A stretch of DNA of 21,218 nucleotides from a virus, in the IMG/VR virus record IMGVR_UViG_3300043409_000247, positions 1-21,218 of that record. One strand, given 5' to 3'. The notes beneath the pieces are model-generated. The model saw only the letters and a program-made list of their open reading frames with translations. It made no database searches and was not told the DNA's origin. Both the position numbers and the translations under genes were made by a program. Position 1 is the first letter of the stretch, and every line of letters starts with the position of its first letter. This document shows, piece after piece, positions 1,285 through 21,218 of this stretch.

Positions 1285-1366
1285 TGGCGGTTATGCAGAA
1301 ACTTGGTTAGAGACCGATGATTTACGCATTACGACTTGCCGTCTGACCTGCGGTTATGTTAATTGA
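1277..1366 (+). CDS. 29-aa conserved mini-protein (copy 1)
   Basis: The ATG at 1277 overlaps the methyltransferase stop (ATGA); translation gives 29 residues starting MSDGGYAETWLETDDL and ending CRLTCGYVN, with stop TGA 1364-1366. The copy at 16390-16479 differs by one replaced codon (ACC to GAG, T13 to E) and two silent third-base changes (CGC/CGA, ACT/ACA). The length and frame are kept although completely different genes precede it in the two variants, which supports a translated gene. It has two cysteines spaced CxxxC. Function is unknown. Confidence 0.6.
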   Translation: MSDGGYAETWLETDDLRITTCRLTCGYVN

Positions 1367-1385
1367 TTTGGAGGCATAGTGTAAC

Positions 1386-1796
1386 ATGGACAGAAAGCGT
1401 TCGATCTTAAATCGAAAAGCTGAGCCGCCAACGGCTAGGCTCGGAAGGCGCAGAGTTTGGGCGATCCTATTGCTAATTGCATTTAGCCTTTGCTTTTCAA
1501 AAGATTATTCCGTTGCTTATAGTCAATACAAAACACAGCATTATAAGCAATATACATTCATAGAATTAAATGATTTAGATCAGTATTACTGTATTGAGGA
1601 GCTGTGGCACAAGGAAAGCAGATGGTCGCCAACAGCTAAGAATGCAAGGTCATCAGCATTTGGAATACCACAAATTCTAAAGATGAAAGAACCTAACCCA
1701 TTCAAGCAAATAGATAGAGGCTTACGCTATATTGAGCACAAACATGGAACACCATGCAAGGCATTACAGTTCCATAATCGTAAAGGATATTATTGA
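1386..1796 (+). CDS. Membrane-anchored lysozyme/transglycosylase-like protein
   Basis: A 136-aa protein with a basic N-terminus, one hydrophobic segment (about 24-37, WAILLLIAFSLCF) acting as signal or anchor, then a small SLT/goose-lysozyme-like domain. The motif LWHKESRWSPTA carries the likely catalytic E77, followed by SSAFGIPQIL and a GLRYIEHKHGTPCKA segment. Similar domains in actinobacterial secreted lytic transglycosylases have the same order. C69 and C124 could form a disulphide outside the membrane. It probably cleaves peptidoglycan glycan strands, during either entry or lysis. The start is ATG 1386, preceded by GGAGG at 1370-1374. Its TGA overlaps the HNH start (TGATG). A separate peptidase-type endolysin lies at 12080, so this phage carries two wall enzymes. 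Confidence 0.8.
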   Translation: MDRKRSILNRKAEPPTARLGRRRVWAILLLIAFSLCFSKDYSVAYSQYKTQHYKQYTFIELNDLDQYYCIEELWHKESRWSPTAKNARSSAFGIPQILKMKEPNPFKQIDRGLRYIEHKHGTPCKALQFHNRKGYY

Positions 1797-2101
1797 TGAG
1801 TAGCAGTGCATTACGATCTACTGGTTCAACGCATAGATGGCGACAGATACGGAGTCGTATCCTGCGCAGAGATCAATTCATTTGTCAGTATTGCAACCAA
1901 GAAGCTACAACAGTTGATCATGTGATACCAAGAAGGCTTGGTGGTTTAGATAGTGATGATAATTTAGTTGCAAGTTGTCGTAGATGTAATTTAGCGAAAG
2001 GTGGGCGTTTTTTTGTGAGCGCACCGACACCACCGACCCCCCGTTCCTTTTCTAACCCACAAAACACCTCGATCAGCCACGATCAGACTGGATCAGATTG
2101 A
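1796..2101 (+). CDS. HNH endonuclease
   Basis: A 101-aa HNH nuclease. Two zinc pairs (C30xxC33 and C61xxC64) enclose the core: DHVIPRRLGG with catalytic H42, and the DNLVASCRRCN segment with N56. In HK97-type phages an HNH protein next to the large terminase helps cut the concatemer at cos during packaging, and that job fits here since no recognisable small terminase is present. I chose ATG 1796 (TGATG overlap with the lysozyme stop) over the in-frame TTG at 1793. The last 25 or so residues (APTPPTPRS onward) are proline-rich and unlike a folded domain. The DNA there holds a C-rich tract and three GATCAG repeats that may be a packaging site. Confidence 0.92.
   Translation: MSSSALRSTGSTHRWRQIRSRILRRDQFICQYCNQEATTVDHVIPRRLGGLDSDDNLVASCRRCNLAKGGRFFVSAPTPPTPRSFSNPQNTSISHDQTGSD
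2037..2096 (+). promoter_or_regulatory. Candidate packaging (cos-like) region: C-tract plus three phased GATCAG repeats
   Basis: A run of six C (2037-2042) stands out in this A+T-rich genome. Downstream, GATCAG occurs at 2071, 2081 and 2091, exactly 10 bp apart, about one helical turn, ending just before the terminase TTG. Phased repeats beside an HNH/terminase pair are where terminase-binding and cos cleavage sites can lie. The repeats are inside the HNH 3' coding end. The function is inferred from position and spacing only. Confidence 0.35.
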
Positions 2102-3573
2102 TTAACCTTAAAACTGGTGAGATAAGCGTAGATCACGCTCAATCGACATTAGGAGGTGTGCAAACACCGCGTATTCACTCAAAACTCAATGATTTGCCGT
2201 CTAAAGGTCAAGAGATGATTGATTTTGCAACCGAACTTGGAATCAATCTTATGGAATGGCAAAAATTCGTGTGCATTCATGCTCATAAAATTAAAGAAGA
2301 TAATCGGTGGGCAACCGCCGAATTGGGGTTGTGCCTTAGTCGCCAGAATGGAAAGAGCACCTTGATGATGCTTCGAATTCTGACCGGCATGTTTGTGTGG
2401 GGCGAAGGATTACAACTTGCATCAGCTCACAGACTTACTACATCACTTGAAACATTTAGACAGATTGTTGGCTTGATTGAAACACATCCGGCACTTGAGA
2501 AGGAAGTAAAGAAAATCAGGTGGCAACATGGCGCGGAGGAAATAGAATTATTTGGCAACAGGCGGTTTGTCGTGAAGGCTGCTAACAATGCAGCTAGAGG
2601 TTTAAGCAAACCTGAAACAATTCACATGGATGAGTTGCGAGAATACAAAGATGAGGATGCTTGGTCATCAATGCGTTATTCAATGATGAGTGCTAAAAAT
2701 CCGCAAGTATGGGTTTATTCTTCAGCAGGTGATCAGCATTCAGTTATACTTAATAAATTACGCGAGCGGGCATTGGCATCAGCTACGACCAATGACCCAA
2801 TAGGTTGGTTTGAGTGGAGTGCTGAACCTGATGCTCCTATCTTGCTTCCGTCAGGCGAGATTAACTGGAGTGCATTTGCTCAAGCCAACCCATCTTTAGG
2901 AATTACAATTCACCCAGACAACATTAAAGCTGCAATCAATGATCCACCGGATATTGTTAGGACTGAGTTACTCACACAATGGGTTGATACAATAAACAGC
3001 GCAATTGATCCGCAAAAGTGGGCTTTGTGTCAAATAGATCCAATACCATTAGATCCTGAGCAACCTACTTGGCTTGGCTTGGATTTGTCGCCTGATAGAA
3101 AGTTTGGCGCATTAGTAGCTGCTCAACGATTATCGGGGGAAAGATTTTATGTGCAATTGTTACACACTTGGTCAAATGATTACAGCTTAAACGATTTAGC
3201 AGTTGCCAACGATATTGCGCCTTATGTTAGAAAATACAATACGCAAACTGTGGCTTATAGCAAAAGGACAAGTCAGGCAGTTGCCAGTCGCCTAAGTTCT
3301 GCCGGCATTCAAACAACCGACATGGATGGGGCTTTATATGCGGAAAGTTGCGATAGATGGCTTGGAGCAATTAACTCACACAGGTTGCAACATTCTGGGC
3401 AAGCGGAATTGACCCAGCAAGTGTTATCAGCTGCAAAATTGCCTTATGGTGATGGCAGTTGGATTATTGGAAGGCGAGCAAGTCGGGTGGCGGTTTGTGC
3501 ATCTGTGGCAACGGCATTGGTAACTTATTTTGCGACACAACCTGAAACGGAAATAGACATACAAATCGCATAA
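2098..3573 (+). CDS. Terminase large subunit
   Basis: A 491-aa packaging motor, the ATPase/nuclease that drives DNA into the prohead and cuts it. The Walker A-like motif is SRQNGKST (81-88), Walker B IHMDE with D178/E179, and a likely coupling motif YSSAGD (207-212). The C-terminal RNase-H-like nuclease starts at WLGLDLSPDRKFGALVAA with D329; later acidic residues (DGALYAESCD) may complete the site. Length fits the family. The start is TTG 2098, overlapping the HNH stop as TTGA. The family-typical GVQTPRI segment begins only 20 residues in, which argues against later starts. GTG 2158 has AGGAGG directly before it, but only one base away. Position and partner suggest cos-type packaging with the HNH protein. 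Confidence 0.95.
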   Translation: MINLKTGEISVDHAQSTLGGVQTPRIHSKLNDLPSKGQEMIDFATELGINLMEWQKFVCIHAHKIKEDNRWATAELGLCLSRQNGKSTLMMLRILTGMFVWGEGLQLASAHRLTTSLETFRQIVGLIETHPALEKEVKKIRWQHGAEEIELFGNRRFVVKAANNAARGLSKPETIHMDELREYKDEDAWSSMRYSMMSAKNPQVWVYSSAGDQHSVILNKLRERALASATTNDPIGWFEWSAEPDAPILLPSGEINWSAFAQANPSLGITIHPDNIKAAINDPPDIVRTELLTQWVDTINSAIDPQKWALCQIDPIPLDPEQPTWLGLDLSPDRKFGALVAAQRLSGERFYVQLLHTWSNDYSLNDLAVANDIAPYVRKYNTQTVAYSKRTSQAVASRLSSAGIQTTDMDGALYAESCDRWLGAINSHRLQHSGQAELTQQVLSAAKLPYGDGSWIIGRRASRVAVCASVATALVTYFATQPETEIDIQIA

Positions 3574-3583
3574 ACAGGACTTT

Positions 3584-4708
3584 ATGGTATATTATGGTCT
3601 AATGGGATTATTTGATCGATTTTTGACAAATCAAACACCAACAATTCAAACCGATGTTGCTGCCGCTAATACGCCTTACAATTTACAATCAGCTGTTGGC
3701 GGATTATTTTATGGAGCACAAACCGCAACACGCGAACAAGCAATGTCAGTTCCAAGTTGCGCCAGAGCAAGAAATATAATTTGCTCAACAATTGGATCAC
3801 TACCTTTAGAAACATATAATCATTTTACAAAAGAACATTTAGATCCAAATAGAGTAATTATGCAACCAGATCCAAGAGTTGCAGGTTCAGCAATTTATGC
3901 TTGGATCGCTGAGGATTTATTATTTCATGGTGTCGCTTATGGACAAGTTTTGGATGCTTATGCTGCATCAGATAACAGTCGAGTTCGTGCTTGGACAAGA
4001 GTTGCACCTGATCGAGTTACTTACAACTTAAATGCAAATCAAACTGAAATTACTTCATACATGGTTGATGGAATGCATGTTCCGGCATCAGGCATTGGAT
4101 CTTTAATTGTATTTAGTGGATTAGATGAAGGTGTGCTTAATCGCGCAGGTCGCACAATAAGAGCTGCTCAGGAATTAGAAAAGGCTGCTGAATTATACGC
4201 TAAAGAGCCAGTTCCCACAATGGTATTAAAATCAAATGGCACAAATCTTGCACCAGAGAGAATTACAAAACTTCTTGAAAGTTGGAAAGTTGCTAGAAAC
4301 ACAAGAGCAACTGCATTCTTAAATGCTGATGTTGAATTAACAGCTCTTGGATTTGATCCACAAAAATTACAATTAAATGAAGCACGCCAATACCTTGCAA
4401 CAGAGATTGCAAGAGCAGTTGGCATTCCGGCAAGTTTTGTATCTGCTGAAACTACTAGCATGACTTATAGCACGACTGTTATGGAACGCAAAGCACTTAT
4501 TGATTTCAGTTTAAGAAATATTCTTACACCAATAGAGCAAAGATTATCAATGGCTGATTTTGTTCCAAATGGTGTCGAGGTTCGATTTGACATTGATGAT
4601 TTCTTGAGAGGTTCTGCTTTAGAGCGTGCTCAAGTCTATGAAATCCTAAACCGCATTGGCGCAATGAGCGTTGAACAAATCCAAGAGGAGGAGGACTTGA
4701 TCCGATGA
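3584..4708 (+). CDS. Portal protein (HK97 family)
   Basis: A 374-aa portal, the dodecameric ring at the capsid vertex through which DNA passes and to which the tail attaches. HK97-portal features are visible: SVPSCARARNIICSTIGSLP near 60-75, AWIAEDLLFHGVAYG, EIARAVGIPASFVS, and SFDLRN-like SLRNILTPIEQRLS near the C-terminus. The start at ATG 3584 has an AGGA four bases upstream. The in-frame ATG 3602 (MGLFDRF) also matches usual portal N-termini but has no ribosome site. A GAGGAGGAGG stretch at the 3' end (4685-4694) serves as ribosome binding site for the next gene, whose ATG overlaps the stop (ATGA, 4705). Confidence 0.93.
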   Translation: MVYYGLMGLFDRFLTNQTPTIQTDVAAANTPYNLQSAVGGLFYGAQTATREQAMSVPSCARARNIICSTIGSLPLETYNHFTKEHLDPNRVIMQPDPRVAGSAIYAWIAEDLLFHGVAYGQVLDAYAASDNSRVRAWTRVAPDRVTYNLNANQTEITSYMVDGMHVPASGIGSLIVFSGLDEGVLNRAGRTIRAAQELEKAAELYAKEPVPTMVLKSNGTNLAPERITKLLESWKVARNTRATAFLNADVELTALGFDPQKLQLNEARQYLATEIARAVGIPASFVSAETTSMTYSTTVMERKALIDFSLRNILTPIEQRLSMADFVPNGVEVRFDIDDFLRGSALERAQVYEILNRIGAMSVEQIQEEEDLIR

Positions 4709-6252
4709 AGATCAATTTCCCAATAACAATAACCGCAGCTGATACAAACAAGCGAACAATAAGTGGAACAATTGTAAGCTGGAATGAAAAAGGTATGACC
4801 TCAGCAGGTGCTACTGTTTTTGCAAAAGACAGTATTGATTTCGCAAAACCAGTAAAATTATTGCTCGAGCATGACAAAACACGACCTTTAGGAAAACTTG
4901 TCGATATAACTGCTAATGATAAAGGTTTAGAAGGCACATTCAAATTAGCCAAAACTTTTGCAGCTGATGATGCGCTTGAGGAAGCAGCAACCGGATTACG
5001 CGATGGATTTTCTGTCGGAGTAATGGTTGATGCTTGGGATAACAAAGATGGCGCAATGGTCATTTCAAAAAGTTCTTTACAGGAAGTCAGTTTGGTGTCT
5101 GACCCAGCAATTGCCTCAGCAAAAGTTGAAAGCGTAGTTGCAACAAATACACCGGCAGAGAATTCCGAAGCAACCGCTGAGGATACAACAACACAGGAGG
5201 ACAAAGTGTCTGATATAACTTCAGATGCTCCTATCGCAACCGAAGCGGTAGAAGCTGCAAAGTCTGAGCCTGTGGCAGTAGTAGCAGCGCAGTCAGTTGC
5301 TTACACAAAGCCACGCTCACCAATTATCAACAAAGCAACATACCTAGAGCATTCAGTTCGTGCTGCACTAGGAAACGATGAGAGCCGTCAGTATGTAATG
5401 GCTGCTGATACAACCAGCAACAATTCTGGCTTAATTCCAACACCACAATCAACAGAAGTTATCAACGGCATTTCAAATGCAGATCGTGGATCAATTGATG
5501 CAATTTCTCGTGGCGTATTGCCAGCATCAGGCATGACTTTTGAAATTCCAAAGATTACAACTGCTCCAACAGTTGGTGAGGAAGCAGAAGCAGCAACAAT
5601 TGATACAACCGATATGGCATCATCTTTCGTAACAGTAAATGTTAAGAAATTTGCCGGCGGACAAACATTCTCAGTTGAGTTGCTAGATCGTTCATCACCA
5701 GCATTCTTTGATGAGTTAGTTCGTCAAATGGAATTCGCTTATGCAAAAGAAACAGATAAGTTTGTCACTAATGGCATTATCTCATCTGGCTTAATTGCTA
5801 CAACAGCACAGGACAACACAAACACAGGACTTCTTGCTTATGTTGCACAAGCTGCTCAATTGGTTTATTCAAACTCATTGGGATTTGCTCGCAGCCTTGT
5901 GGTATCTCCAGAACAATGGGGTAACATCATGGGTTATAACGATGGTGGTCGTCCAATCTACAATGCTTCGAACCCACAAAACTCAGGTGGAGTAGTAGGA
6001 CCTCAATCACTTCGTGGAAATGTTGCTGGACTTGATCTTTATGTATCTCGTTCATTATCAGCATTAACATACACAACTGGTGATGGATCAATGTTTGTAA
6101 TCAATCCAGAAAGTTACACATGGTATGAGAGCCCACGCTTACAACTTCGTTCAGACATCACAGCAACAGGTCAAGTATCTGTCGCTTACTACGGCTATGG
6201 CGCACTTGCAACAAAGATCGCCAACGGATCAGTTCATTTCAACAAGAACTAA
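4705..6252 (+). CDS. Fused prohead protease and major capsid protein
   Basis: A 515-aa two-part protein. Residues 1-140 form an HK97-type capsid maturation protease: likely catalytic H56 (LLLEHDKT), S103 (DGFSVGV), then LQEVSLVSDPA (125-135). Residues 141-200 are a charged, Ala/Glu-rich linker or scaffold (delta-like) segment. From about 235 there is an HK97-fold capsid: NNSGLIPTPQSTEVI, SRGVLPASGMTFEIPKI, then the P-domain-like end. Fusion of these two genes is known from small actinophages. The protein should assemble the prohead and cleave its own linker on maturation. An internal ribosome site and GTG at 5206 could give capsid without protease. A hairpin follows the stop. Confidence 0.92.
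   Translation: MKINFPITITAADTNKRTISGTIVSWNEKGMTSAGATVFAKDSIDFAKPVKLLLEHDKTRPLGKLVDITANDKGLEGTFKLAKTFAADDALEEAATGLRDGFSVGVMVDAWDNKDGAMVISKSSLQEVSLVSDPAIASAKVESVVATNTPAENSEATAEDTTTQEDKVSDITSDAPIATEAVEAAKSEPVAVVAAQSVAYTKPRSPIINKATYLEHSVRAALGNDESRQYVMAADTTSNNSGLIPTPQSTEVINGISNADRGSIDAISRGVLPASGMTFEIPKITTAPTVGEEAEAATIDTTDMASSFVTVNVKKFAGGQTFSVELLDRSSPAFFDELVRQMEFAYAKETDKFVTNGIISSGLIATTAQDNTNTGLLAYVAQAAQLVYSNSLGFARSLVVSPEQWGNIMGYNDGGRPIYNASNPQNSGGVVGPQSLRGNVAGLDLYVSRSLSALTYTTGDGSMFVINPESYTWYESPRLQLRSDITATGQVSVAYYGYGALATKIANGSVHFNKN
5195..5208 (+). promoter_or_regulatory. Internal ribosome binding site and in-frame GTG for free capsid protein
   Basis: AGGAGG at 5195-5200 is a full Shine-Dalgarno, five bases before GTG 5206-5208. 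This GTG is codon 168 of the protease-capsid gene, in frame, placed after the protease domain and before the capsid domain. Starting here would give a 348-residue scaffold-plus-capsid protein lacking protease. The sequence elements are seen directly; their use is inferred. Confidence 0.6.
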
Positions 6253-14537: not shown

Positions 14538-15193
14538 TGGCATTTAACTTAGCGGAGTATGAGGATGTTGCCACGCTTAACAAATGGTTCATCCAAAACT
14601 TCCCATCGGGCAGATCTGACATATCTGTAATCAGCCATGATGCAGTCAATGGTTATATCTTGGTGCAAGCGACTTTGTGGCGAGATAGCAAAGATACATC
14701 ACCGGCAGTTAGCAACATTGCATTTGGCGCAAGAGAAAGTTATATCCAAAACATGAAAAAGTTTTATGTTGAGGATACAGCTACAAGCGCATTAGGTAGA
14801 GCAATTATTCTACTCAAAGGATCTGACAAAACTGCTACAAAAGATGATATGAGGAAAGTTGATGAGTTTGTTCCTAAGTATTCTGCTGCTGGTTCTCGTG
14901 CTCGTGCTATGGAGCAAGCACTTTATATTGTCGATCAGAAAGAAAAGAATGCGGCAACGACAGATCCACAAGCTGTTGTCTGGAGCGTTGGTGATGTTGT
15001 TGATGCAATCGGCTCAACAAAACCTAAGGCACAAGAGTGCAAGCATGGAGTTATGATATTAAAAGAAGGAACTGCTAAAACTGGCAAGCCATATCATGGC
15101 TATGTTTGCAGCGCACCTAAAGGTGAGCAATGCAATGCTAAGTGGGCAGTTACAGCTGCTAATGGCAGTTGGTTCTTCAGAGAGGAGGAATAA
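14537..15193 (+). CDS. ERF/Rad52-like ssDNA-binding protein with C-terminal zinc finger
   Basis: A 218-aa protein; ATG 14537 overlaps the preceding stop, and TTG 14525 is rejected. The N-terminal domain has YILVQATLWRDS and the late motif VEDTATSALGRAIILLKG, like the ENCETSAVGRALA.LG signature of phage ERF-type annealing proteins. Such proteins bind ssDNA and promote recombination, and this is the only replication/recombination gene in sight. The C-terminus holds C168, H170, C191 and C199 in KHGVMILKEGTAKTGKPY then HGYVCSAPKGEQC, a zinc-binding finger found on many phage versions. Confidence 0.72.
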   Translation: MAFNLAEYEDVATLNKWFIQNFPSGRSDISVISHDAVNGYILVQATLWRDSKDTSPAVSNIAFGARESYIQNMKKFYVEDTATSALGRAIILLKGSDKTATKDDMRKVDEFVPKYSAAGSRARAMEQALYIVDQKEKNAATTDPQAVVWSVGDVVDAIGSTKPKAQECKHGVMILKEGTAKTGKPYHGYVCSAPKGEQCNAKWAVTAANGSWFFREEE

Positions 15194-16393: not shown

Positions 16394-16479
16394 GTGATGG
16401 CGGTTATGCAGAAACTTGGTTAGAGGAGGATGATTTACGAATTACGACATGCCGTCTGACCTGCGGTTATGTTAATTGA
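16390..16479 (+). CDS. 29-aa conserved mini-protein (copy 2)
   Basis: Starts in the SpeD-like stop (ATGA) and ends TGA 16477-16479. It matches the first copy except E13 for T13 and two silent changes. After its codon for T20 the two copies become identical at 16450, so the end of the variable cassette lies inside this gene. Confidence 0.6.
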   Translation: MSDGGYAETWLEEDDLRITTCRLTCGYVN

Positions 16480-16498
16480 TTTGGAGGCATAGTGTAAC

Positions 16499-16909
16499 AT
16501 GGACAGAAAGCGTTCGATCTTAAATCGAAAAGCTGAGCCGCCAACGGCTAGGCTCGGAAGGCGCAGAGTTTGGGCGATCCTATTGCTAATTGCATTTAGC
16601 CTTTGCTTTTCAAAAGATTATTCCGTTGCTTATAGTCAATACAAAACACAGCATTATAAGCAATATACATTCATAGAATTAAATGATTTAGATCAGTATT
16701 ACTGTATTGAGGAGCTGTGGCACAAGGAAAGCAGATGGTCGCCAACAGCTAAGAATGCAAGGTCATCAGCATTTGGAATACCACAAATTCTAAAGATGAA
16801 AGAACCTAACCCATTCAAGCAAATAGATAGAGGCTTACGCTATATTGAGCACAAACATGGAACACCATGCAAGGCATTACAGTTCCATAATCGTAAAGGA
16901 TATTATTGA
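16499..16909 (+). CDS. Lysozyme/transglycosylase-like protein (second reading)
   Basis: Residue-for-residue the same as the protein at 1386-1796: N-terminal membrane segment, HKES with catalytic E77, C69/C124. In this copy it follows the SpeD-like cassette, so its upstream context is variant B. See the first copy for the annotation. Confidence 0.8.
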   Translation: MDRKRSILNRKAEPPTARLGRRRVWAILLLIAFSLCFSKDYSVAYSQYKTQHYKQYTFIELNDLDQYYCIEELWHKESRWSPTAKNARSSAFGIPQILKMKEPNPFKQIDRGLRYIEHKHGTPCKALQFHNRKGYY

Positions 16910-17214
16910 TGAGTAGCAGTGCATTACGATCTACTGGTTCAACGCATAGATGGCGACAGATACGGAGTCGTATCCTGCGCAGAGATCAATTCATTTGTCA
17001 GTATTGCAACCAAGAAGCTACAACAGTTGATCATGTGATACCAAGAAGGCTTGGTGGTTTAGATAGTGATGATAATTTAGTTGCAAGTTGTCGTAGATGT
17101 AATTTAGCGAAAGGTGGGCGTTTTTTTGTGAGCGCACCGACACCACCGACCCCCCGTTCCTTTTCTAACCCACAAAACACCTCGATCAGCCACGATCAGA
17201 CTGGATCAGATTGA
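16909..17214 (+). CDS. HNH endonuclease (second reading)
   Basis: Same 101-aa protein as at 1796-2101, with ATG 16909 overlapping the lysozyme-like stop. The C-tract and GATCAG repeats are present again, at 17150-17209. Confidence 0.92.
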   Translation: MSSSALRSTGSTHRWRQIRSRILRRDQFICQYCNQEATTVDHVIPRRLGGLDSDDNLVASCRRCNLAKGGRFFVSAPTPPTPRSFSNPQNTSISHDQTGSD

Positions 17215-18686
17215 TTAACCTTAAAACTGGTGAGATAAGCGTAGATCACGCTCAATCGACATTAGGAGGTGTGCAAACACCGCGTATTCACTCAAAACTC
17301 AATGATTTGCCGTCTAAAGGTCAAGAGATGATTGATTTTGCAACCGAACTTGGAATCAATCTTATGGAATGGCAAAAATTCGTGTGCATTCATGCTCATA
17401 AAATTAAAGAAGATAATCGGTGGGCAACCGCCGAATTGGGGTTGTGCCTTAGTCGCCAGAATGGAAAGAGCACCTTGATGATGCTTCGAATTCTGACCGG
17501 CATGTTTGTGTGGGGCGAAGGATTACAACTTGCATCAGCTCACAGACTTACTACATCACTTGAAACATTTAGACAGATTGTTGGCTTGATTGAAACACAT
17601 CCGGCACTTGAGAAGGAAGTAAAGAAAATCAGGTGGCAACATGGCGCGGAGGAAATAGAATTATTTGGCAACAGGCGGTTTGTCGTGAAGGCTGCTAACA
17701 ATGCAGCTAGAGGTTTAAGCAAACCTGAAACAATTCACATGGATGAGTTGCGAGAATACAAAGATGAGGATGCTTGGTCATCAATGCGTTATTCAATGAT
17801 GAGTGCTAAAAATCCGCAAGTATGGGTTTATTCTTCAGCAGGTGATCAGCATTCAGTTATACTTAATAAATTACGCGAGCGGGCATTGGCATCAGCTACG
17901 ACCAATGACCCAATAGGTTGGTTTGAGTGGAGTGCTGAACCTGATGCTCCTATCTTGCTTCCGTCAGGCGAGATTAACTGGAGTGCATTTGCTCAAGCCA
18001 ACCCATCTTTAGGAATTACAATTCACCCAGACAACATTAAAGCTGCAATCAATGATCCACCGGATATTGTTAGGACTGAGTTACTCACACAATGGGTTGA
18101 TACAATAAACAGCGCAATTGATCCGCAAAAGTGGGCTTTGTGTCAAATAGATCCAATACCATTAGATCCTGAGCAACCTACTTGGCTTGGCTTGGATTTG
18201 TCGCCTGATAGAAAGTTTGGCGCATTAGTAGCTGCTCAACGATTATCGGGGGAAAGATTTTATGTGCAATTGTTACACACTTGGTCAAATGATTACAGCT
18301 TAAACGATTTAGCAGTTGCCAACGATATTGCGCCTTATGTTAGAAAATACAATACGCAAACTGTGGCTTATAGCAAAAGGACAAGTCAGGCAGTTGCCAG
18401 TCGCCTAAGTTCTGCCGGCATTCAAACAACCGACATGGATGGGGCTTTATATGCGGAAAGTTGCGATAGATGGCTTGGAGCAATTAACTCACACAGGTTG
18501 CAACATTCTGGGCAAGCGGAATTGACCCAGCAAGTGTTATCAGCTGCAAAATTGCCTTATGGTGATGGCAGTTGGATTATTGGAAGGCGAGCAAGTCGGG
18601 TGGCGGTTTGTGCATCTGTGGCAACGGCATTGGTAACTTATTTTGCGACACAACCTGAAACGGAAATAGACATACAAATCGCATAA
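17211..18686 (+). CDS. Terminase large subunit (second reading)
   Basis: Identical 491-aa protein to 2098-3573, TTG start overlapping the HNH stop. Walker A SRQNGKST, Walker B IHMDE and the nuclease Asp are unchanged. Confidence 0.95.
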   Translation: MINLKTGEISVDHAQSTLGGVQTPRIHSKLNDLPSKGQEMIDFATELGINLMEWQKFVCIHAHKIKEDNRWATAELGLCLSRQNGKSTLMMLRILTGMFVWGEGLQLASAHRLTTSLETFRQIVGLIETHPALEKEVKKIRWQHGAEEIELFGNRRFVVKAANNAARGLSKPETIHMDELREYKDEDAWSSMRYSMMSAKNPQVWVYSSAGDQHSVILNKLRERALASATTNDPIGWFEWSAEPDAPILLPSGEINWSAFAQANPSLGITIHPDNIKAAINDPPDIVRTELLTQWVDTINSAIDPQKWALCQIDPIPLDPEQPTWLGLDLSPDRKFGALVAAQRLSGERFYVQLLHTWSNDYSLNDLAVANDIAPYVRKYNTQTVAYSKRTSQAVASRLSSAGIQTTDMDGALYAESCDRWLGAINSHRLQHSGQAELTQQVLSAAKLPYGDGSWIIGRRASRVAVCASVATALVTYFATQPETEIDIQIA

Positions 18687-18696
18687 ACAGGACTTT

Positions 18697-19821
18697 ATGG
18701 TATATTATGGTCTAATGGGATTATTTGATCGATTTTTGACAAATCAAACACCAACAATTCAAACCGATGTTGCTGCCGCTAATACGCCTTACAATTTACA
18801 ATCAGCTGTTGGCGGATTATTTTATGGAGCACAAACCGCAACACGCGAACAAGCAATGTCAGTTCCAAGTTGCGCCAGAGCAAGAAATATAATTTGCTCA
18901 ACAATTGGATCACTACCTTTAGAAACATATAATCATTTTACAAAAGAACATTTAGATCCAAATAGAGTAATTATGCAACCAGATCCAAGAGTTGCAGGTT
19001 CAGCAATTTATGCTTGGATCGCTGAGGATTTATTATTTCATGGTGTCGCTTATGGACAAGTTTTGGATGCTTATGCTGCATCAGATAACAGTCGAGTTCG
19101 TGCTTGGACAAGAGTTGCACCTGATCGAGTTACTTACAACTTAAATGCAAATCAAACTGAAATTACTTCATACATGGTTGATGGAATGCATGTTCCGGCA
19201 TCAGGCATTGGATCTTTAATTGTATTTAGTGGATTAGATGAAGGTGTGCTTAATCGCGCAGGTCGCACAATAAGAGCTGCTCAGGAATTAGAAAAGGCTG
19301 CTGAATTATACGCTAAAGAGCCAGTTCCCACAATGGTATTAAAATCAAATGGCACAAATCTTGCACCAGAGAGAATTACAAAACTTCTTGAAAGTTGGAA
19401 AGTTGCTAGAAACACAAGAGCAACTGCATTCTTAAATGCTGATGTTGAATTAACAGCTCTTGGATTTGATCCACAAAAATTACAATTAAATGAAGCACGC
19501 CAATACCTTGCAACAGAGATTGCAAGAGCAGTTGGCATTCCGGCAAGTTTTGTATCTGCTGAAACTACTAGCATGACTTATAGCACGACTGTTATGGAAC
19601 GCAAAGCACTTATTGATTTCAGTTTAAGAAATATTCTTACACCAATAGAGCAAAGATTATCAATGGCTGATTTTGTTCCAAATGGTGTCGAGGTTCGATT
19701 TGACATTGATGATTTCTTGAGAGGTTCTGCTTTAGAGCGTGCTCAAGTCTATGAAATCCTAAACCGCATTGGCGCAATGAGCGTTGAACAAATCCAAGAG
19801 GAGGAGGACTTGATCCGATGA
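18697..19821 (+). CDS. Portal protein (second reading)
   Basis: Identical 374-aa protein to 3584-4708, with the same AGGA ribosome site and the same ATGA overlap with the next gene. Confidence 0.93.
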   Translation: MVYYGLMGLFDRFLTNQTPTIQTDVAAANTPYNLQSAVGGLFYGAQTATREQAMSVPSCARARNIICSTIGSLPLETYNHFTKEHLDPNRVIMQPDPRVAGSAIYAWIAEDLLFHGVAYGQVLDAYAASDNSRVRAWTRVAPDRVTYNLNANQTEITSYMVDGMHVPASGIGSLIVFSGLDEGVLNRAGRTIRAAQELEKAAELYAKEPVPTMVLKSNGTNLAPERITKLLESWKVARNTRATAFLNADVELTALGFDPQKLQLNEARQYLATEIARAVGIPASFVSAETTSMTYSTTVMERKALIDFSLRNILTPIEQRLSMADFVPNGVEVRFDIDDFLRGSALERAQVYEILNRIGAMSVEQIQEEEDLIR

Positions 19822-21218
19822 AGATCAATTTCCCAATAACAATAACCGCAGCTGATACAAACAAGCGAACAATAAGTGGAACAATTGTAAGCTGGAATGA
19901 AAAAGGTATGACCTCAGCAGGTGCTACTGTTTTTGCAAAAGACAGTATTGATTTCGCAAAACCAGTAAAATTATTGCTCGAGCATGACAAAACACGACCT
20001 TTAGGAAAACTTGTCGATATAACTGCTAATGATAAAGGTTTAGAAGGCACATTCAAATTAGCCAAAACTTTTGCAGCTGATGATGCGCTTGAGGAAGCAG
20101 CAACCGGATTACGCGATGGATTTTCTGTCGGAGTAATGGTTGATGCTTGGGATAACAAAGATGGCGCAATGGTCATTTCAAAAAGTTCTTTACAGGAAGT
20201 CAGTTTGGTGTCTGACCCAGCAATTGCCTCAGCAAAAGTTGAAAGCGTAGTTGCAACAAATACACCGGCAGAGAATTCCGAAGCAACCGCTGAGGATACA
20301 ACAACACAGGAGGACAAAGTGTCTGATATAACTTCAGATGCTCCTATCGCAACCGAAGCGGTAGAAGCTGCAAAGTCTGAGCCTGTGGCAGTAGTAGCAG
20401 CGCAGTCAGTTGCTTACACAAAGCCACGCTCACCAATTATCAACAAAGCAACATACCTAGAGCATTCAGTTCGTGCTGCACTAGGAAACGATGAGAGCCG
20501 TCAGTATGTAATGGCTGCTGATACAACCAGCAACAATTCTGGCTTAATTCCAACACCACAATCAACAGAAGTTATCAACGGCATTTCAAATGCAGATCGT
20601 GGATCAATTGATGCAATTTCTCGTGGCGTATTGCCAGCATCAGGCATGACTTTTGAAATTCCAAAGATTACAACTGCTCCAACAGTTGGTGAGGAAGCAG
20701 AAGCAGCAACAATTGATACAACCGATATGGCATCATCTTTCGTAACAGTAAATGTTAAGAAATTTGCCGGCGGACAAACATTCTCAGTTGAGTTGCTAGA
20801 TCGTTCATCACCAGCATTCTTTGATGAGTTAGTTCGTCAAATGGAATTCGCTTATGCAAAAGAAACAGATAAGTTTGTCACTAATGGCATTATCTCATCT
20901 GGCTTAATTGCTACAACAGCACAGGACAACACAAACACAGGACTTCTTGCTTATGTTGCACAAGCTGCTCAATTGGTTTATTCAAACTCATTGGGATTTG
21001 CTCGCAGCCTTGTGGTATCTCCAGAACAATGGGGTAACATCATGGGTTATAACGATGGTGGTCGTCCAATCTACAATGCTTCGAACCCACAAAACTCAGG
21101 TGGAGTAGTAGGACCTCAATCACTTCGTGGAAATGTTGCTGGACTTGATCTTTATGTATCTCGTTCATTATCAGCATTAACATACACAACTGGTGATGGA
21201 TCAATGTTTGTAATCAAC
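19818..21218 (+). CDS. Fused prohead protease-major capsid protein, 3' truncated by window end
   Basis: The first 467 codons of the 515-codon gene seen at 4705-6252; the last 48 residues are cut off by the window edge. The internal AGGAGG/GTG start is repeated at 20308-20321. The only difference noticed is the last base (21218), silent. Confidence 0.92.
   Translation, partial: MKINFPITITAADTNKRTISGTIVSWNEKGMTSAGATVFAKDSIDFAKPVKLLLEHDKTRPLGKLVDITANDKGLEGTFKLAKTFAADDALEEAATGLRDGFSVGVMVDAWDNKDGAMVISKSSLQEVSLVSDPAIASAKVESVVATNTPAENSEATAEDTTTQEDKVSDITSDAPIATEAVEAAKSEPVAVVAAQSVAYTKPRSPIINKATYLEHSVRAALGNDESRQYVMAADTTSNNSGLIPTPQSTEVINGISNADRGSIDAISRGVLPASGMTFEIPKITTAPTVGEEAEAATIDTTDMASSFVTVNVKKFAGGQTFSVELLDRSSPAFFDELVRQMEFAYAKETDKFVTNGIISSGLIATTAQDNTNTGLLAYVAQAAQLVYSNSLGFARSLVVSPEQWGNIMGYNDGGRPIYNASNPQNSGGVVGPQSLRGNVAGLDLYVSRSLSALTYTTGDGSMFVIN

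Follow-up and report, generated by a model that had tools for sequence, protein, structure and literature searches.

For hundreds of sequenced phages, the annotated product is solely a fusion of protease and capsid protein, an arrangement that would force one protease on every capsid subunit, and a prohead would presumably need fewer proteases than capsid subunits. Such a gene lies in the stretch of 21,218 nucleotides analyzed here (the window; IMG/VR record IMGVR_UViG_3300043409_000247), and the question that it raises is how free capsid protein could be obtained from a single reading frame. We confirmed for the window's gene that an S78 prohead protease, a linker and a major capsid protein of the HK97 fold lie within one frame of 515 codons (4705..6252, plus strand). 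Pfam placed Peptidase_S78 at residues 12-144 (4738..5136, plus strand) and Phage_capsid at residues 243-504, while residues 11-504 were matched by PHROG 2263, "major head protein". His56 and Ser103 were invariant in an alignment of 40 sequences and are probably the catalytic His and Ser of the protease. In the AlphaFold model (mean pLDDT 73), the protease fold extended to about residue 145 and the capsid began at about residue 210, with a low-confidence and presumably disordered linker at residues 148-203 (pLDDT < 50; 5146..5313, plus strand). The capsid fold matched HK97-type capsids and heads in Foldseek; the sequence search gave no close solved structures of the fusion protein.

According to PHROG assignments, the gene order was terminase (2098-3573), portal (3584-4708) and fusion. 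The ATG of the fusion gene overlapped the portal stop (ATGA, 4705-4708), as it did in the annotation tables of most small-phage reference records outside Gordonia, and this overlap suggests that translation of the fusion may be coupled to that of the portal. A 226-codon antisense open reading frame (4524-5204, minus strand) overlaps the protease half of the gene; it starts beside the internal Shine-Dalgarno sequence (SD) described below and does not cover the GTG. The contig holds 4,770 bases twice (1336-6105 and 16449-21218, period 15,113). The copies differ at two end bases only, and the 1,335 bases preceding each copy differ from each other. The contig exceeds one unit of a genome of roughly 15 kb, and two variants of a variable region were probably joined in its assembly. 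The spacing of 15,113 bases between the copies fits the 14-18 kb class of small siphoviruses with fusions.

A preliminary description of this DNA had proposed an internal start, AGGAGG followed five bases later by an in-frame GTG, situated between the two domains. The site was found exactly so: AGGAGG at 5195..5200 (plus strand), predicted to be unpaired, the spacer ACAAA of 5 nt, and GTG at 5206..5208 (plus strand), which is codon 168 of 515, in frame with 4705-6252. Its position between protease and capsid also held, since it falls between the two Pfam domains and within linker 148-203 of the AlphaFold model. This SD is independent of the overlap with the portal stop. Sharing frame and stop with the full-length gene, the nested frame (5206..6252, plus strand; 348 codons) would give a free capsid protein of 36.8 kDa, the predicted full-length product being 515 residues and 54.4 kDa. 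The pattern AGGAGG-N5-RTG occurred 3 times in the window versus 0.27 expected; two of these matches are the internal site itself, whose second copy (20308..20321, plus strand) lies in the repeated end of the contig, and the third is at 15183. Given the amino acids and the gene's codon usage, an SD and start codon of equal quality would arise by chance with p ~0.014, and the site is only moderately unusual when judged on the window's sequence alone. When SD strengths were compared over the checked starts of the window, the internal site ranked in the top three. That of the fusion was slightly stronger (-11.7 vs. -10.3), a point against the internal start; the two are so similar that the product ratio cannot be read from SD strength. 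The search for a sigma-70-like promoter of a short transcript in 4600-5300 returned a single match, which lay on the opposite strand and was no better than chance; a separate promoter was rejected on this search, which leaves room for other promoter types. Neither a terminator nor a known RNA family was found by search.

The site exceeds chance because it is conserved. Relatives were taken from two viral scans (80 from the first and 80 from the second), and 112 distinct full genes of the window's family were aligned, under the convenience label "freshwater". Codon 168 was aligned in 97 genes, of which 95 had GTG and 2 had TTG, so that all 97 had a start codon; at 19 other columns with valine in at least 80% of genes, GTG accounted for 0-30% (median ~2%). 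In the TTG cases valine had become leucine and a bacterial start codon was retained. The upstream codons were CAG GAG (AGGAGG) in 42 genes and GAA GGA (AAGGAG) in 55. The SD was thus kept in two codon registers, CAG GAG GAC AAA GTG versus GAA GGA GAA CAA GTG, with different peptides (QEDK vs. EGEQ). Among the remaining 15 genes, the L056 type had GAG GAN ACT NTN GTG, that is, GTG after GAGGA; the L069 type had ATG after AAGGAAGGG nearby; and L156 and L157 had GTG after GCGAGG. Start-codon swaps at the site were limited to ATG, GTG and TTG. Over the 112-gene alignment, column 168 was the top column for SD plus start (91% of genes; next 38%), and in relatives the internal SD was often stronger than the fusion's own (-9.3 vs. 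-3.3 to -6).

Synonymous changes were counted on a tree built without the linker, at fourfold sites with a conserved residue (121 columns). These sites changed 19.7 times each on average, whereas columns 156, 163, 176, 157, 168 and 175 changed 0-3 times, and the lowest counts all fell in codons 156-176; the 2 changes at column 168 came solely from lineages with the start elsewhere. Recombination in the linker could depress such counts, yet the nearby valine columns 141, 144 and 182 changed 13-22 times. A codon that varies only among ATG, GTG and TTG behind a conserved SD is most simply a used start.

No lineage with the two domains as separate genes was found among the fetched loci of the window's family. 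L061 was considered as a split gene and rejected; its frame break, which lies beyond the site and immediately ahead of codon 225, is probably a sequencing error. The unfused capsid genes of L202 and Mycobacterium phage Suarez either are too remote or begin with a longer N-terminal region, and therefore do not fix the position of the start. No relatives of Penoan were found in viral contigs.

These data bear on the alternative that only the full-length fusion is made, as a polyprotein with one protease per capsid subunit, and that all protease domains are cut off in maturation. Conservation of the protease residues and a presumably disordered, hence cleavable, linker agree with this account; moreover, cleavage needs no internal start and may also run alongside one. 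However, it does not account for a start codon at position 168 in every aligned gene, for the survival of the SD through changes of both register and amino acids, or for the same layout in unrelated fusions (see below). As the sole explanation we regard it as improbable.

A second alternative is that the DNA is conserved for the sake of an RNA structure, or of ribosome pausing at an SD-like sequence in aid of co-translational folding or cleavage, and that the GTG is incidental. Region 5150-5262 folds at -31.2 kcal/mol (z -3.4; z -5.6 in the relative L113). Hairpin H0 (UCC-ga-AGC-aacc-GCU-ga-GGA; 5164..5183, plus strand), upstream of the SD, covaries in a sister group. Hairpin H1 (5205..5229, plus strand) holds the GTG in its stem and has a compensatory change from a U-A to an A-U pair in five relatives, and hairpin H2 (CUAUCGC-aaccgaa-GCGGUAG; 5231..5251, plus strand), after the start, recurs in relatives. 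No structure emerged from RNAalifold when all lineages were combined; the lineages do not align, so two groups were treated separately. In the 46 group-B sequences, the named structure was paired in 97.3% of cells versus 25-57% when slid, a comparison biased toward the structure, which was read off the same sequences. Covariation in this group was 0.150 versus 0.088 in shuffles, and 0 of 500 shuffles, which do not preserve the relatedness of the sequences, reached it. The 27 group-A sequences showed a compensatory change at one H1 pair in five of them. In the window's own fold, the SD was predicted to be open and the GTG to be paired, and the pairing of the GTG counts against its use as a start; RNAalifold on group B also paired the SD with downstream UUCC/CUCC. 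After the start, codons 175-176 show hardly any synonymous change and read GCUCCU, which is complementary to AGGAG in the SD (window 5195-5235), and pairing of the two may provide an alternative closed state of the site. The covarying hairpins and the synonymous constraint on either side of the site agree with a structure or pause, but neither would limit the codon to ATG, GTG or TTG. Moreover, most of the isolated actinophages possess the site in RNA that folds unremarkably (z mostly between -0.6 and 1.7), and the hairpins are therefore a feature of the window's family. We consider it quite improbable that structure or pausing accounts for the site.

In addition, 21 annotated fusions were compared from phages of Arthrobacter, Microbacterium, Curtobacterium, Gordonia and Rhodococcus (identity to the window's protein ~25-40% for those that match). 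An in-frame start in the protease-capsid linker was present in 19 of the 21, with an SD of -5.5 or lower in 15. Examples of these linker starts are AGGAGGACACCACA-ATG in GMA5, AGGAGGACACCACC-GTG in PensacolaC28, AAGGAGAACAACCTC-ATG in GRU3, AAAGAGGCAGTA-ATG in Decurro, and GAGAGGACACCCCCAAC-ATG in Loca (GAGAGGACACC-ATG in its relative L184). The free capsid protein is predicted to begin at M160 (followed by TVEEM) in Decurro and at M265 (followed by NVAAY) in GMA5. The SDs of Yavru, Whytu and Berka were weak (-4.0 to -4.3), and no convincing linker site was found in Emperor and EricDab. In these two Gordonia phages (L188, L195), the protease is preceded by an additional N-terminal segment of ~120 residues, which ends at an SD-preceded ATG (codons 121 and 117). 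Junction sites picked by eye had a median SD energy of -5.9 versus -2.2 at other internal ATGs (Mann-Whitney p 1e-8). When the linker was instead set beforehand by the end motif of the protease and its best start compared with other windows of the same gene, the combined p was 7e-11 (ATG only) and 6e-6 (ATG and GTG) for a 75-codon linker, and 3e-7 and 4e-4, respectively, for a 50-codon linker. Per-codon enrichment in the isolated phages with GTG allowed was not significant (p 0.05-0.12). In GC-rich phages the SD was largely expected from the upstream amino acids (p mostly 0.3-0.9 given the residues); there the argument therefore rests on position and recurrence, and selection would act via the choice of residues. 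The fusion proteins of Arthrobacter phage Adaia and of Pseudomonas phage Hadban (L082), the latter listed with P. aeruginosa as host, are nearly identical, and the host label of Hadban looks doubtful. The ArV2 proteomics was set aside as a source on fusions, the ArV2 genes not being fused.

A further fusion, the Circum type (AM/AU), has little or no similarity to the small-phage fusion of Maggie, according to Klyczek et al. (PMC5513430). In Circum gene 12, ATG165 follows AAGGAG directly behind the protease, and ATG242 follows GGAAGG directly before the capsid. The ATG242 site, aligned in six reference phages (two of Arthrobacter and one each of Gordonia, Streptomyces, Faecalibacterium and Lactococcus), was ATG in four, GTG in one and TTG in one. 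Over 73 distinct genes of this family, the scaffold-capsid junction had ATG in 67, GTG in 5 and TTG in 1, that is, a start codon in 73/73, with an SD of -5.5 or lower in 72, these counts allowing three residues of alignment slack (89% without it). The residues before the junction start varied (EGAEE, GGNDD, EENPD, EGEST). The Circum-type fusions (L204-L209, L210-L289) thus have two apparent nested starts, the first following the protease and the second the scaffold, and their sequences hint that three products may come from one gene. The preliminary description had named absence of the site from relatives as grounds for refutation, and the comparison gave the opposite: across the fused lineages examined, which include this family without close similarity to the window's, the site was kept in nearly every one.

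The preliminary description had allowed that the site arose by chance. GAG-rich acidic linkers often yield SD-like triplets beside a start codon, p is ~0.014 for the window alone, the SDs of GC-rich phages are expected from their amino acids, and column 551 of the Circum family scores as high as the junction, with SD and ATG combined in 90% of its genes, a false positive that a conserved protein motif apparently explains. Chance is contradicted by the conservation: start codons in 97/97 genes against 0-30% GTG at other valine columns, and in 73/73 genes of an unrelated family, make coincidence very improbable indeed. A programmed frameshift is hardly credible. Some bacterial frameshift signals do combine an SD-like element with hairpins downstream, but CAG GAG GAC AAA GTG TCT (within 5192-5211) holds no in-frame X XXY YYZ heptamer, the frame runs on into the capsid, and the start codon would not be conserved.

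We therefore return to nested translation, which the sequences make highly probable: much free capsid protein (37 kDa) and little protease-capsid fusion (54 kDa) would be made from one gene with two starts in the same frame. The first, the ATG at 4705, would provide the fusion in minor amount, and the second, GTG 5206 behind the SD at 5195-5200, the free capsid protein, which would begin with a short delta-like arm (residues 168 to about 209). By analogy with HK97 biology, fusion and free capsid protein would co-assemble via their common capsid domains, placing some protease in each prohead, where it would trim the arms and free itself. We infer that both products are made, as well as their ratio and the role of the hairpins. 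It is possible, and we propose it only tentatively, that phages with fused protease-(scaffold)-capsid genes have repeatedly and independently arrived at nested starts as a general solution and that, in the window's family, the three hairpins around the SD form a dedicated cis-acting RNA element which sets the ratio of fusion to capsid, perhaps being opened by ribosomes coming from the upstream start. If the conserved nested start is used, it resolves the puzzle of one protease per subunit, calls for the most abundant virion protein of these phages to be re-annotated and predicts the actual N-terminus of the capsid precursor. Cultured phages of Arthrobacter, Gordonia and Microbacterium carry fusions, so it is directly testable there.

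The fusions themselves are already published; the internal start appears to be new within the open-licence literature and annotations. No report of it was found in that literature (an earlier description elsewhere is possible), no annotation mentioning it was found, and the available parts of PMC5513430 and PMC7302621 contain no mention of it. In those parts, the "major capsid and protease fusion protein" found in small actinophages (clusters AN, AX, FE, CW, DM, EE and RRH1) is described and annotated as a single product, and a fused gene is compared with HK97 and lambda fusions (PMC5513430). The window's gene is a member of this group, sharing its domain order, small genome and order of terminase, portal and fusion.

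In HK97, the gp4 protease and gp5 capsid protein have the same S78 protease and HK97 fold, but they are separate genes, whereas they are fused in the window. The tripartite protease-scaffold-capsid gene of Gifsy-2 also joins protease and capsid in one gene; its protease is ClpP-like in contrast to the S78 protease here, and a single fusion is reportedly made, from which the protease domains are removed at maturation. In herpesviruses, UL26/UL26.5 joins the protease to a C-terminal assembly protein, and the latter is produced by itself as well. As in our proposal, this C-terminal part is in excess of the protease form; unlike in the window, it comes from separate overlapping transcripts, and the excess product is a scaffold. 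In lambda C/Nu3, one frame with one stop has an internal start that yields the abundant C-terminal part, and the full-length product carries the protease. The comparison with C/Nu3 in the preliminary description is borne out as regards the conserved internal start in the same frame, the common stop and the protease on the full-length product. It does not extend to the nested product, which in lambda is the scaffold, whereas here the nested frame encodes the major capsid protein, preceded by no more than a short arm. The window's gene would work like lambda C/Nu3 and lies outside that family, its nested part holding the Phage_capsid domain.
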